Assembly: GCA_945897515.1 (NCBI GenBank)
Contig: CAMDFO010000045.1
Location: 1-35,903 of the forward strand
Reading direction: 5' to 3'
Length of the DNA stretch: 35,903 nucleotides
DNA from: Rhodoplanes serenus
GTDB lineage: Bacteria; Pseudomonadota; Alphaproteobacteria; Rhizobiales; Xanthobacteraceae
Made by a program: the position numbers and the translations under genes. Below, one piece after another: positions 22,478 through 34,893 of the stretch. How positions within the stretch are numbered: the stretch's first letter is position 1; each line of letters opens with the position of its first letter. A model generated the notes under the pieces. The model did not search any database and was not told the origin of the DNA. It saw only the letters and a list, made by a program, of their open reading frames with translations.

Positions 22478-25400
22478 TCACTCCGCGGCCTTGCGCATGG
22501 CGTCCCACTCGCGCAGCGCCTTGGCGTCGCGCGGCGTGACATCGGGATACTGCGGATCGGTGCCGACCGCGGGCGAGATTTTCCACGAGCGCGCGCATTT
22601 GGTGCCTTCGGCGCGATGCACCGTGACGGCGACGCCCGTGACTTCGGGCAGGCGGAACGCATCGGCCGGTCCCTCGCCCTCGAGCAGCGTCGCGGCCGAG
22701 GTGATGCAGACCTCCGGCAGGTCGATGTCGACCAGCGCCTCGAACAGATCGAGGTTCGACACGAACACCTGCGGCGCGGCTTCGAGCGAGGAGCCGATGC
22801 GCTTGCCGGCGCGCTCGATCTCGATCGCGCCGGTGACGACCCGGCGGACCAGCCGCACCTTGCGCCATTTCTCGGCGAGCTTGTCGTCGCGCCAGGCGGC
22901 CGGCACGTCGGGGAACGGCACGAGATGCACGGAAATGTCGCCGGAGCCGAAGCGTTCGAGCCAGGCTTCCTCCGCGGTGAAACACAGCATCGGCGCGAGC
23001 CACGTCACCGTGCAGCGGAACAGTTGGTCGATCACGGTCAGCGCGGCCTTGCGGGTGCGCGAAGAAATCGGATCGCAGTACAGCGCGTCCTTGCGCACGT
23101 CGAAATAGAACGCCGAGAGGTCGGTGGTCATGAAATGGCTGAGCGCCGCGAAGATGCGCTTGTAGTCGAACTCGGCGTAGGCCTTGCGCACCAGTTCGTC
23201 GAGCTCCGAGACCCGGTGCAGCATCAGCCGCTCCAGCTCCGGCATCTTGTCCGGAGCGATCCGGTCCTCTTCGTGGAAATGCGCCAGGCTGCCGAGCATC
23301 CAGCGAACGGTGTTGCGCAGCTTGCGGTAGGTCTCGATTGTGGTTTTCAGGATTTCCGGCCCGATGCGGAGGTCGTCGGCGTAGTCGGAGGCGCACACCC
23401 ACATCCGCAAAATGTCGGCGCCGGAATTCTTGATGACGTCCTGCGGCGCGGTGACGTTGCCGAGCGACTTCGACAGCTTGCGGCCCTGCTCGTCGAGCAC
23501 GAAGCCGTGGGTCAGCACCACGTCGAACGGCGCGCGGCCGCGCGTGCCGCTGCTTTCCAGCAGCGACGAATGAAACCAGCCGCGGTGCTGGTCGGAGCCT
23601 TCGAGATACATCACCGCGTCCGGGCCGCCGTCGTGCTTGCGTTTGATGCCGGCGAGGCTCGGGAAATGCTTCGGGTCTTCCAGCACGAACGCATGGGTCG
23701 AGCCGGAGTCGAACCAGACGTCGCAGATGTCGTCGACCTTCTTCCAGTCCTCGTTGGCGCGGCTGCCGAGGAAACGCTCGCGCGCCCCGGCCTGATACCA
23801 GGCGTCGGCGCCCTCCTGTTCGAACGCGTCGGCGATGCGCTTGTTGACTTGCTCGTCTTCCAGGATCGTGGCGGTGCCGTCGGCGTTCTCGCGCAAGAAC
23901 ACGGCGATCGGCACGCCCCAGGCGCGCTGGCGCGAGATCACCCAGTCCGGGCGGCTCTCGATCATGCCGTTGATGCGGTTCTCGCCGGCGGCGGGCACCC
24001 AGCGGGTCTCGCCGATCTCGCGCAGCGCGATCTCGCGCAGCGTACCACCGAACGCTGCGATCGGCTTGTCCATCGCGATGAACCACTGCGGCGTGTTGCG
24101 GAAGATCACCGGCTTCTTGGAGCGCCACGAGTGCGGGTACTGATGCTTCAGCCGTCCGCGCGCGATGATATTGCCGGCGGCGGCGAGCGCCTTGATGACG
24201 GCCTCGTTGGCGTCGCCCTTCTCACCCTTGTCGTTGATGACGCGCTTGCCCTGGAAGCCGGGCGCGTGGTCGGTGAACGCGCCGTTCTCGTCGACGGTGT
24301 AGGGGATGGCGGAGTTTATTGCGGACTTTTCCAGCCTTGCCGCATTCGCCATCCAAACATCAAAGTCCTCACGTCCGTGGCCGGGTGCGGTATGCACAAA
24401 GCCCGTACCTGTATCATCGGTAACGTGATCACCGGGCAAAAGCGGAACTCGAAATCTATATCCACTATCGAAGCCCGCTAACGGATGGCGACACTCCATT
24501 GAAAATAATTCTTTGGCTGAAATGGAACGAACTCTCCGAGATGCCGAAACGCGGGCTTGCTGCATTACCTCTTCGGCAAGCTTGTCAGCCAGGAGAAGCC
24601 GCTCTCCTTTTTTTAGCCAATTGCCGTCTGGCACGTCGGTCACTTCGTAAAGGCCGTATTCAATGGACGGCTTCCACGAATAACTGATTGCTCGATTGCC
24701 GGGGAGCGTCCAAGGCGTGGTCGTCCAGATTACGACCGCGGCGTTTTTCAGATCAGGATCAGGTTCAACGTGAATTAGTTTTCCAGGCTCGCCATCTGGG
24801 TGGTCGCTCTCCTCTGATTTAAGAGCGTGATCTACCGGAAACTTCACCCAAACCGTATCGCTCGTATAATCCTCGTACTCCACCTCGGCTTCCGCGAGCG
24901 CGGTCTTCTCCACCACGCTCCACATCACCGGCTTGCTGCCGCGATACAGCGTGCCATTGGCCGCAAACTTCATCAGCTCGCGCGCGATCTGCGCTTCGGC
25001 GGCAAAGCTCATCGTGGTGTAGGGCTTGTCCCAGTCGCCCTCGACGCCGAGCCGCTTGAACTCCTCGCGCTGCACCTCCAGCCAGTGCTGCGCATAGGCG
25101 CGGCACTCCTGGCGGAACGCGATCATCGCCGCCGGATCGGACAGGTTCGGCTTCTGCTTGTTCTTGGAGCGGTAGTTCTCCTCCTCGATCTTCCATTCGA
25201 TCGGCAGGCCGTGACAGTCCCAGCCCGGCACGTAGTTGCTGTCGTAGCCGAGCATCTGCTGGCTGCGCGTCACCACGTCCTTCAAAATCTTATTGAGCGC
25301 GTGGCCGATGTGGATGTTGCCGTTGGCGTAGGGCGGGCCGTCGTGCAGCACGAACTTGTCGCGGCCCTGGCCGGCCTCGCGCAGCCGCTCGTAAAGCCCG

Positions 25401-25537
25401 ATCCGCTTCCAGCGCGCCAGCAGGTCCGGCTCGCGCTGCGGCAGGCCGGCGCGCATCGGGAATTCGGTCTGCGGCAGGAAGAGCGTCTGGCTGTAGTCGC
25501 GCTCGCCGGATTTGGCGTCGCCGGGCTTGTCGGTCAT
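22478..25537 (-). CDS. ileS: Isoleucyl-tRNA synthetase
   Basis: A 1019-residue class Ia synthetase. It shows HIGH (76-79), the CP1 editing domain with [12 protein letters not shown] (271-281) and [10 protein letters not shown] (382-391), the KLSKS loop, and a C-terminal tRNA-binding region. It charges tRNA-Ile and hydrolyses Val-tRNA-Ile in the editing site. The C-terminus lacks the paired cysteine zinc knuckle found in E. coli IleRS. Codon use changes sharply between residues 224 and 411 (nt 24307-24868): by my count 25 of the first 47 codons there end in A or T, against 6 of the 50 codons at residues 171-220. This block covers the editing domain. Reading frame and catalytic motifs are intact. 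Confidence 0.97.
24307..24868 (-). other. Low-GC, rare-codon block within ileS (CP1 editing domain)
   Basis: A contiguous block with codons otherwise rare in the window (AGA, AGG, ATA, CTA, TTA, AAA) and about half A/T at third positions. It begins at Tyr224, just before the editing domain, and ends near Ile411, just after [10 protein letters not shown]. The sequence on both sides returns at once to GC-rich codons. This is what recombination of one domain from a lower-GC donor would leave; local selection on translation speed is another possibility. Confidence 0.7.
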
Positions 25538-25577: not shown

Positions 25578-26567
25578 TCAAATCCCAGGATTTCCAAGCA
25601 CCGGAAACGCGTCCGGCGCCCGCCGGAGCGCGGCGCGGGCCTGGCGGGAGTCGTCGTCCATGCGGCGGATCAGTTCGTCGACGCCGTCGAACTTCAGCTC
25701 CGGGCGGATCCAGGCGACGAACGCCACGTCCATCGCCGCCCCGTAGAGGTCGCCGGAAAAGTCGAACAGGAACACTTCGAGCAGCACCACGCCCGAGTCG
25801 AACATCGGCCGCCTGCCGAAGCTCGCCACGCCGTCGTAGCGCTGGCCGTCGACGCCCACCCGCACCGCGTAGATGCCGTGCTTGAGCCCGCACTCCGGCC
25901 CAAGCTGCAGGTTGGCGGTCGGATAGCCAAGCTCGCGGCCGCGCTTGTCGCCGTGCACCACCTGCGCGGTGACGAAATAGGGGTAGCCGAGCAGTTCGGT
26001 GGCTTCCGCGACATGGCCGGCGGCCAGCGCATCGCGGATCGCACCCGAGGAGACGCGCCGCCCATCCAGCAGGAACGGCGGCACCACGTCGACCGAGAAG
26101 CCGCGGTGCGCGCCCTCCGCGGTCAGGAAGTCCGGCGTGCCCTGGCGCGCCTTGCCGAAATGGAAGTTGAACCCGATCACGGCGCCGCTGATGGCGAACC
26201 GGTCCACCAGCACCTGGTTGACGAACTGCTCGGCGGTCAGGCCGGCGAGCGGCGCGTCGAACGTCAGCACAATCGCCCCGTCGAGCCCGGTGGTCGCCAG
26301 CAGCCGCAGCTTGGCGGCCTCCGAGGTCAGCCGGAACGACGGCGCGTCCGGCTGGAAAAAGCTCCGTGGATGCGGTTCGAAGGATAGCGCCGCCGCCGGC
26401 CGCCCGGCGGCGCGGGCGCGGTCGATCGCGGTGCCGATCACGGCGCGGTGGCCGCGGTGCACGCCGTCGAAGTTGCCGATGGCGACCACTGCCCGGCGCA
26501 GCCGGTCAAGCGCCGGTCCGGCGTCGTGCGCGACGACGAACGGCTTGGTGTGATCGTGCTCGGTCAT
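25578..26567 (-). CDS. ribF: Bifunctional riboflavin kinase/FAD synthetase
   Basis: A 329-residue enzyme that phosphorylates riboflavin to FMN and adenylates FMN to FAD. The N-terminal nucleotidyltransferase has AIGNFDGVHRGHRAVI, FEPHPRSFF, VIGFNFHFG and the SSGAIRDAL motif. The C-terminal kinase has RGRELGYPTANLQL (with the PTAN metal/ATP motif), HGIYAVRV and LEVFLFDFSGDLYG. Its length fits the family. It ends 40 bases before ileS on the same strand, the usual ribF-ileS-lspA order, so the three are probably co-transcribed. The start ATG 26567 is 215 bases from the divergent receiver gene. Confidence 0.95.
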   Translation of the reverse strand: MTEHDHTKPFVVAHDAGPALDRLRRAVVAIGNFDGVHRGHRAVIGTAIDRARAAGRPAAALSFEPHPRSFFQPDAPSFRLTSEAAKLRLLATTGLDGAIVLTFDAPLAGLTAEQFVNQVLVDRFAISGAVIGFNFHFGKARQGTPDFLTAEGAHRGFSVDVVPPFLLDGRRVSSGAIRDALAAGHVAEATELLGYPYFVTAQVVHGDKRGRELGYPTANLQLGPECGLKHGIYAVRVGVDGQRYDGVASFGRRPMFDSGVVLLEVFLFDFSGDLYGAAMDVAFVAWIRPELKFDGVDELIRRMDDDSRQARAALRRAPDAFPVLGNPGI

Positions 26568-33336: not shown

Positions 33337-34893
33337 ATGGCCGACAAAACCAACAAGCTCAAAGCGCGCCTGCCGCCCGGACTATCCGATCGCGGACCGG
33401 CCGAGATCGCCGCTACGCGCCGCATGACCGAGGCGATCCGCGAGGTCTATGAGCGCTATGGCTTCGACCCGGTGGAGACGCCGGCGATCGAATACACCGA
33501 CGCGCTCGGAAAATTTCTGCCCGATCTCGACCGGCCGAACGAGGGCGTGTTCTCGTTCCAGGACGACGACGAGCAGTGGATGTCGCTGCGCTACGACCTG
33601 ACCGCGCCGCTGGCGCGCTACGTGGCGGAGAATTTCCAGAAGCTTGCGCTACCGTATCGTTCTTATCGATTCGGTTGGGTGTTCCGCAATGAGAAGCCGG
33701 GGGCAGGACGCTTCCGCCAATTCATGCAGTTTGATGCGGATACGGTTGGCTCTGGTTCGCCCGCGGCCGACGCCGAGATATGCATGATGGCGGCGGACAC
33801 GATGGAGGCGCTTGGCATCGCACGCGGCCAGTATGTGGTGAAGGTGAACAACCGCAAGATTTTTGACGGAGTTCTTGATGCTTTGGGGTTCGATGAAAAA
33901 GAGGAAGCGGGGCGCCGCTTAGCCATTCTTCGTGCGGTTGATAAGGCCGATAAATTTCCGTTGGTCGAAATCGAAAAGCTGCTAGGGCCAGGACGAAAAG
34001 ACGAGAGCGGTGACTATACTAGGGGTGCGCAACTTAGTCCGTTTCAGATCGAACGAGTTGTGTCGATTATTGCTCCTAGGCAAGAGACCGAGCGATTATT
34101 TAAGTTCTACAGCCGGAGTTACTCCAAACCTTTCACCGTTCGGAGATACGCGGAATATCTTGATAGATATTTCGGCCTATCGACTTTACCGCCACGGATT
34201 ATCGAGGGCTTGGAGGAGCTTGATCAGATTCGCCGACTTGTTCGTGCTTGTAGATATGGGCCAGATCGAATTCGCATCGATCCGACTGTCGTCCGCGGCC
34301 TCGAATACTACACCGGCCCGGTCTACGAGGTCGAACTCCTACTTGACACCAAGGACGAGAAGGGCCGCCCGGTCCGCTTCGGCTCGGTCGGCGGCGGCGG
34401 GCGCTACGACGGACTGGTGTCTCGCTTTCGCGGTCAGCCGGTGCCGGCGACCGGTTTCTCCATCGGTGTATCCCGATTGCAGGCCGCGTTAACCCTGATT
34501 GGCAAGCTCGATAATAAGTCCGTAGAGGGTCCAGTTCTCGTTACCATATTCGACCATCATCGCACTGCGGACTACCAGAAGATGGTGGCGGAGCTTCGCG
34601 AAAACGGGATCCGCGCGGAACTGTATCTCGGTAGTCGCAATCACAACTTGGCTCAGCAGCTCAAATACGCCGACAAGCGCGGCAGCCCCTGCGCGATCAT
34701 CCAGGGCTCCGACGAGAAGGCGACCGGCGAGATCCTGATCAAGGACCTGTTCCTGGGAGCCGAACTGGCGAAGCTGGAAAACCGCGAGGAGTATCTCCGG
34801 AAGCAGGCCGACGCCCAACGCAAGGTGCCGGAGGGCAAGCTGGTCGAGGCCGTCCGCGAGGTCCTGGCCCGCCATAGCGTGACCTGGAACTGA
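33337..34893 (+). CDS. hisS: Histidyl-tRNA synthetase
   Basis: A 518-residue class II synthetase, longer than the roughly 420-residue E. coli enzyme as usual in this order. It has motif 1 ([13 protein letters not shown]), [13 protein letters not shown], motif 2 ([20 protein letters not shown]), the HisA motif [13 protein letters not shown], motif 3 ([10 protein letters not shown] to FSIGVSRL) and a C-terminal anticodon-binding domain. Codon use shifts to low GC from about 33850 to 34285: by my count 38 of 70 codons at residues 187-256 end in A or T, against 9 of the first 50 after the start. A weaker second patch is at 34474-34650. Frame and motifs are intact. Confidence 0.96.
33850..34285 (+). 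other. Low-GC, rare-codon block within hisS
   Basis: This block codes for about residues 172-316, the segment between motif 2 and the HisA motif where HisRS carries its insertion domain. It contains codons such as TTA, CTA, AGG, CGA, AGA and ATT that are scarce in the flanks, and returns to GC-rich codons at the HisA motif. A milder change is visible from about 33645 and again at 34474-34650, so the mosaic may have several breakpoints. Confidence 0.65.

Follow-up and report, generated by a model that had tools for sequence, protein, structure and literature searches.

The ileS gene in the 35,903-nucleotide stretch of DNA analysed here (the window) carries an internal segment, residues 235-410 of isoleucyl-tRNA synthetase (IleRS), that stands apart from the rest of the gene: its edges are sharp, its codons agree with those of congeners only at the level of chance, its protein sequence is divergent, its tree differs in topology from that of the core, and comparable segments recur in relatives. 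We consider it probable, at about two chances in three, that this block was replaced in one piece by DNA of another lineage through homologous recombination, the core staying native; an exchange is favoured because the edges are sharp, codon agreement is random only inside them and the tree topologies differ. We propose a model whereby recombination would have been anchored in conserved codons on both sides of the block, the catalytic core would have stayed native with the editing active site still working in principle, and the donor would belong to a lineage outside those sampled. Similar replacement would have been repeated in ileS throughout the family, and this genome would have several further synthetase genes with it, the replaced segment always lying between conserved anchors and being the one least tied to the catalytic core. 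Homologous recombination as the carrier, and an incoming pool lower in GC3, are what we infer from these data.

Composition and limits of the ileS block

The window protein exceeds the curated cut-off of TIGR00392 and thus fits a bacterial isoleucyl-tRNA synthetase (Table 1). Its gene is present as one full match in its own genome (4.47 Mb, 119 contigs, 88.9% complete), and its position adjoining ribF is conventional.

Table 1. Coordinates of the genes, blocks and motifs discussed (window positions, unless a locus of the same genome is named)
Feature	Position	Strand	Basis
ileS, isoleucyl-tRNA synthetase	22478..25537	(-)	1019 codons/aa; NCBIfam TIGR00392 774.1 bits, cut-off 621.4
ribF, upstream of ileS, ordinary neighbour	25578..26567	(-)	NF004160 344.7 bits, cut-off 295
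ileS low-GC3 block by composition, codons 223-407	24317..24871	(-)	LLR 78.7; shuffle maximum 13.5
ileS block, putatively non-native, residues 235-410	24308..24835	(-)	codon match to majority of 8 congeners
ileS codons 223-234, low GC3 yet native	24836..24871	(-)	near letter-for-letter match with congeners
Hypervariable loop at block start, residues 235-262	24752..24835	(-)	alignment; codon match near 0
First conserved editing-site motif, residues 271-281 (W-T-T-T-P..N)	24695..24727	(-)	T272-T274, N281 kept
Second conserved editing-site motif, residues 382-391 (H..D)	24365..24394	(-)	H382, D391 kept
hisS, histidyl-tRNA synthetase	33337..34893	(+)	TIGR00442 366 bits, cut-off 286.75
hisS divergent block, residues 178-313	33868..34275	(+)	codon match to 6 congener loci, LLR 63.4
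hisS GC3 block, codons 175-317	33859-34287	(+)	LLR 28.2
ValRS with internal low-GC3 block	L310:540-3383		own genome
GlyS beta with internal low-GC3 block	L330:1902-4130		own genome
AlaRS with internal low-GC3 block, 718-777	L306:580-3237		own genome
SerRS with internal low-GC3 block, 184-250	L303:855-2207		own genome

A low-GC3 block within ileS is confirmed as real: GC3 is 0.50 in codons 223-407, compared with 0.915 over the remaining codons, and the change-point LLR of 78.7 compares with at most 13.5 in 200 codon shuffles. The original prediction, made from the letters alone, had located this block correctly to within a few codons and had named AGA, AGG, ATA, CTA and TTA as its rare codons; these occur 2, 1, 1, 2 and 2 times, respectively, among the 185 block codons and not once among the other 835. 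Its tally of A- or T-ending codons was exact at the start of the block (25 of 47) and one too low just before it, where codons 174-223 hold 7 of 50 rather than 6. Amino-acid make-up is not the cause of the low GC3, because GC3 still differs at positions where six or more of the eight congeners have the residue of the window protein (0.49 in the window, 0.52-0.89 in the congeners).

The limits of the block were resolved by scoring each ileS codon for equality with at least half of the eight congeners. The match is 0.16 within residues 235-410 and 0.78 elsewhere (LLR 119.2), and the edges are resolved to about one codon, at 234-236 and 409-411 (limits within 1.92 lnL). Aligned with Staphylococcus aureus IleRS, the block corresponds to roughly residues 214-346 of that protein; given what we take to be the structural limits of CP1, it lies inside CP1 and short of its structural ends. 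The limits had been predicted to coincide with the editing domain, but the first 12 codons of the low-GC3 stretch are native and the block sits within CP1. It opens with a loop of about 28 residues whose length and sequence are different in every congener and which is unalignable. The two editing-site motifs both lie inside the block, and their residues T272-T274, N281, H382 and D391, whose roles we assume from the E. coli IleRS editing site, are identical in all 206 ileS genes compared; judged by these residues, the editing active site of the exchanged IleRS would be functional in principle.

Divergence from the congeners is equally confined. Protein identity to the eight congeners is 51-65% in the block and 85-91% outside it. 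At conserved residues of the core, codon agreement with the eight is 0.76-0.81, where codons picked randomly according to the usage of each of the two sequences would give 0.58-0.62; at conserved residues of the block it is 0.30-0.41, against a random expectation of 0.32-0.36. Because agreement is random inside the block only, the codon relationship to every congener has been lost there and kept in the flanking codons, and rapid change of the protein alone is insufficient as an explanation. Of the states that are typical of the genus and uncommon elsewhere, 32 of 36 in the core are retained by the window and neither of two in the block, two sites being few. Several block substitutions are private to the window, some of them at otherwise conserved sites. 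A low-GC3 block in CP1 with LLR above 20 is present in the ileS of five of the eight congeners and absent from that of the other three.

Internal blocks in other synthetases of the genome

The window holds a second gene of this kind, hisS. Its GC3 is 0.45 in the block and 0.79 outside, its codon match to six congener loci is 0.08 within residues 178-313 and 0.60 outside, and the protein is 37-44% identical to congeners in the block and 82-85% elsewhere. Four of the six congener HisRS loci (L313-L318) have a low-GC3 block of their own at about the same place. The hisS block diverges more from congeners than the ileS block does.

We scanned 1.24 Mb of the genome (28%, window included), comprising 728 genes of at least 250 codons, choosing starts by codon score, keeping blocks only if they lay 30 codons from either end and naming block genes by NCBIfam. 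Three of the 728 contained an internal low-GC3 block with LLR above 20, namely IleRS (79.3), the GlyRS beta subunit (36.5) and HisRS (28.2), the next gene reaching 19.2. A targeted search added ValRS (LLR 62.7), AlaRS (32.3) and SerRS (25.7), and found no internal low-GC3 block in LeuRS, MetRS, CysRS, ThrRS, ProRS or AspRS (all LLR below 5). Apparent blocks in ThrRS and ProRS arose where the reading frame had been taken too far upstream, and with the correct start the LLR is 4.9 and 4.0. The frequency of blocks is therefore 6 of 12 synthetases, sought by name or family rather than drawn at random, against none of the other 724 genes in the scan, which may themselves include unrecognised synthetases (Fisher 4e-12; without ileS, 5 of 11, 3e-10). 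When only synthetases met in the scan are counted and ileS is excluded, the comparison is two of three against 0 of 724 (p 1e-5). Strongly marked internal blocks are thus confined to synthetases within the scanned part of the genome.

Comparison with congeners covered IleRS, HisRS, ValRS, GlyS and LeuRS. Codon match is 0.29 inside and 0.69 outside residues 297-512 of ValRS, and 0.02 inside and 0.53 outside residues 479-573 of GlyS, for which three of nine congener loci have an internal block with LLR above 20 in the same part; in LeuRS no such block emerged from a comparison spanning 672 residues. LeuRS has an editing domain, while HisRS and SerRS, to our knowledge, are without one in bacteria. 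Since the latter two have blocks and LeuRS presents the reverse case, the blocks do not track editing domains, and their limits do not follow such domains in general. An exchange of an editing domain, as originally predicted, is accordingly too narrow a description, given blocks in HisRS, SerRS, AlaRS, GlyS and ValRS that lie mostly away from editing domains. Across the few congener genomes available, the larger ones (G001, G005 and G007; 5.3-8.2 Mb) have few blocks in IleRS, ValRS and GlyS and the smaller ones (G002, G006, G008 and G010; 3.5-5.5 Mb) have more, with G003 mixed.

CP1 trees, donor search and relatives

In a core tree built by a quick method from the C-terminal part, the nine genus members form one clade (support 99), while in the CP1 tree they fall in five places and are together in none of 200 bootstrap trees. 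An AU test of the genus as a single CP1 clade gave p 0.158 with all 79 rows, which is no rejection, and p 0.0025, a rejection, with the 69 rows left when ten rows that were long or uncertain, including two from the genus, had been removed after the tree was seen. Narrower AU tests gave p 0.369 for the window with L001, L090 and L091, 0.258 and 0.0502 for L086 with L089, and 0.067 for the window with L086. Separate CP1 and core trees had been suggested as a check, with identical topologies and a block in all close relatives pointing to selection rather than transfer; the topologies differ, at the p values just given, and the block is found in five of eight congeners.

In the CP1 tree the window groups with L096 (support 97/90). 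At eight sites separating the genus from the L096 group, however, the window has five genus states, one group state and two that are neither, and the link to L096 may be long-branch attraction. Genus g9, suggested as donor by the CP1 tree, is unsupported at the separating sites. Among 198 family genomes, 182 of which have a CP1 match at E 1e-30, no close donor was found; the best CP1 elsewhere in this family sample reaches 66% identity over the full block (L096) and 71% over part of the block. Among 397 order genomes the own genome was the sole match at E 1e-66. Searches for a donor in viral contigs returned 16 pattern matches, none of them a relative, and those in plasmids (41 records) and phages (12 records) returned only sequences below 60% identity.

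Variation of CP1 was then compared across an order sample of 219 ileS loci, of which 216 were usable and 206 distinct after removal of 10 duplicates (window included). Relative to the core, GC3 of CP1 is lower by more than 0.1 in 65 of the 206, by more than 0.2 in 33 and by more than 0.3 in 11, and higher by more than 0.05 in three and by more than 0.1 in none. In four of the 206 rows the N-terminal part is short or poor, and the counts hold with the C-terminal core alone (drops of 60, 34 and 11 and rises of 6 and 0 at the same thresholds). Among 87 pairs with core identity of at least 0.95, six have a CP1 identity below 0.75 (4 of 59 by the C-terminal core). Such sister cores with unlike CP1 include L086/L089 (core 0.97, CP1 0.67), L036/L052 (0.96 and 0.70) and L103/L111 (0.95 and 0.66); the CP1 of L089 is 0.81 identical to that of L185, from another genus, with branch support of 99/96 in the CP1 tree. 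In 15 pairs with core identity above 0.97 and no GC3 drop, the median CP1 identity is 0.97, and since such vertical pairs keep CP1 as conserved as the core, CP1 is not inherently fast-evolving. The deficit in CP1 identity to the nearest neighbour correlates with the GC3 drop (Spearman -0.51, n=171; -0.52, n=164 with the C-terminal core only). In 105 pairs CP1 is more alike than the C-terminal core by at least 0.06. The pair L140/L178, which had appeared to be of this type, was rejected; the N-terminal part of L178 was misread, and once that part is excluded the two loci are as similar in CP1 as in the core.

Around ileS in 80 relatives we tested 407 genes of at least 250 codons, and an internal low-GC3 block with LLR above 20 occurs in 14 of 76 ileS and in none of the 331 others; in two of the 14 (L049 and L074) it lies near the C-terminus, outside CP1. 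Records without a MAG label account for eight of the 14: Xanthobacter agilis, X. tagetidis, Bradyrhizobium sp. Ec3.3, Bosea sp. Tri-44, Methylocella tundrae, Rhodopseudomonas sp. AAP120, R. palustris XCP and Mesorhizobium alhagi. In a Pseudolabrys MAG (L010), the CP1 loop (positions 481-600 of the locus) contains an in-frame palindromic repeat of dispersed type, parts of which had 110 blastn matches among the loci compared.

Origin of the block and comparison with known systems

The exchange by recombination that the original prediction put forward, with the catalytic core left native, agrees with the sharp edges, the codons and the differing tree topologies; the lower-GC donor that it supposed was not found. 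The main rival is that the block diverged in place, the segment having been freed from constraint in some lineages and having drifted under AT bias to lower GC3 with no import. We judge this unlikely, but it keeps some plausibility because GC3 only falls and no donor was found. Indeed, shifts in the downward direction alone, with CP1 more than 0.1 above the core in none of 206 ileS, are unlike random exchange inside a high-GC family and count against exchange; the private substitutions at otherwise conserved sites, the five genus states against one at the sites separating the L096 group and the AU value of 0.158 with all rows also speak for divergence in place. Codon agreement, however, is lost with all eight congeners inside edges of about one codon and kept next door, so that divergence in place would require a mutation rate greatly raised within the block alone; in addition, CP1 evolves no faster than the core in vertical pairs, and the CP1 type of L089 is common to another genus.

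A chimera assembled within the metagenome bin is very improbable as the source of the block. An assembly split into 119 contigs with 88.9% completeness, edges lying in conserved sequence and the many MAGs among the relatives would all suit such an artefact, yet a chimera would demand two in-frame joins to the correct homologous segment, and a like feature is present in ileS of the eight records that lack a MAG label. Selection for slow or paused translation during CP1 folding, which was the alternative first put forward, would keep rare codons in CP1 and fits their concentration in the block, but we find it scarcely credible: the drop is absent in three of eight congeners and in most of the 206 relatives, LeuRS has an editing domain without a block and HisRS a block, and such selection explains neither the difference in the protein itself nor the random codon agreement.

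Beyond the exchange in ileS, it is conceivable, though we offer this tentatively, that the synthetases of these alphaproteobacteria as a class carry exchangeable non-core segments between conserved anchors (IleRS CP1, HisRS 178-313, GlyS beta, ValRS 297-512, AlaRS 718-777 and SerRS 184-250), swapped repeatedly from an ancient allele pool of lower GC that persists longer than genera do and whose diversity is maintained by selection. Alleles of such a pool may have become too unlike to recombine inside, drifted for long to low GC3 and moved as whole segments, a possibility that would join the readings of exchange and of divergence in place. As to the selecting agents, synthetase-binding inhibitors or toxins, or changing tRNA or protein partners, are our guess. 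Synthetases serve as drug targets and as markers that are taken to be steady and vertically inherited. If repeated exchange has affected their non-catalytic segments and spared their cores, whole-gene synthetase phylogenies mix histories, and something acts specifically on these segments; because the sampled genes other than synthetases are unmarked, it is testable which binding partner or attacker sees them.

Mosaic genes formed by intragenic homologous recombination are familiar from penicillin-binding proteins and porins. The ileS block resembles them in being sharp-edged and probably of unlike descent, with native flanks, and shows the abrupt edges and the much higher synonymous divergence inside by which mosaic genes are recognised, although a donor was not found. 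It differs from them in that it concerns essential synthetases, recurs at the same segment across the family and involves a one-sided fall in GC3. Our literature search, which covered few subscription journals, returned no report of recurrent exchange of synthetase segments accompanied by a fall in GC3. Segmentally variable genes, described in 2004, combine a conserved enzyme core with a variable segment, an insertion in ProRS being among the examples, and IleRS is like them in this respect; by the definition given there, the variable region must span at least 70 residues without detectable similarity, and no general difference in GC between variable and conserved regions is reported (PMC387263). 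The IleRS block, by contrast, aligns at 51-65% with GC3 falling by 0.4, and only the loop of about 28 residues is unalignable, so that ileS falls outside the class as defined in PMC387263. Synthetase homeoalleles (PMC3191353) are divergent whole-gene forms spread by transfer within a group, and the likeness lies in divergent synthetase forms and transfer within a group. Here, unlike in homeoalleles, a segment of a single-copy ileS is concerned, with flanks 85-91% identical to congeners and one ileS in the genome, and ileS is thus not a synthetase homeoallele.
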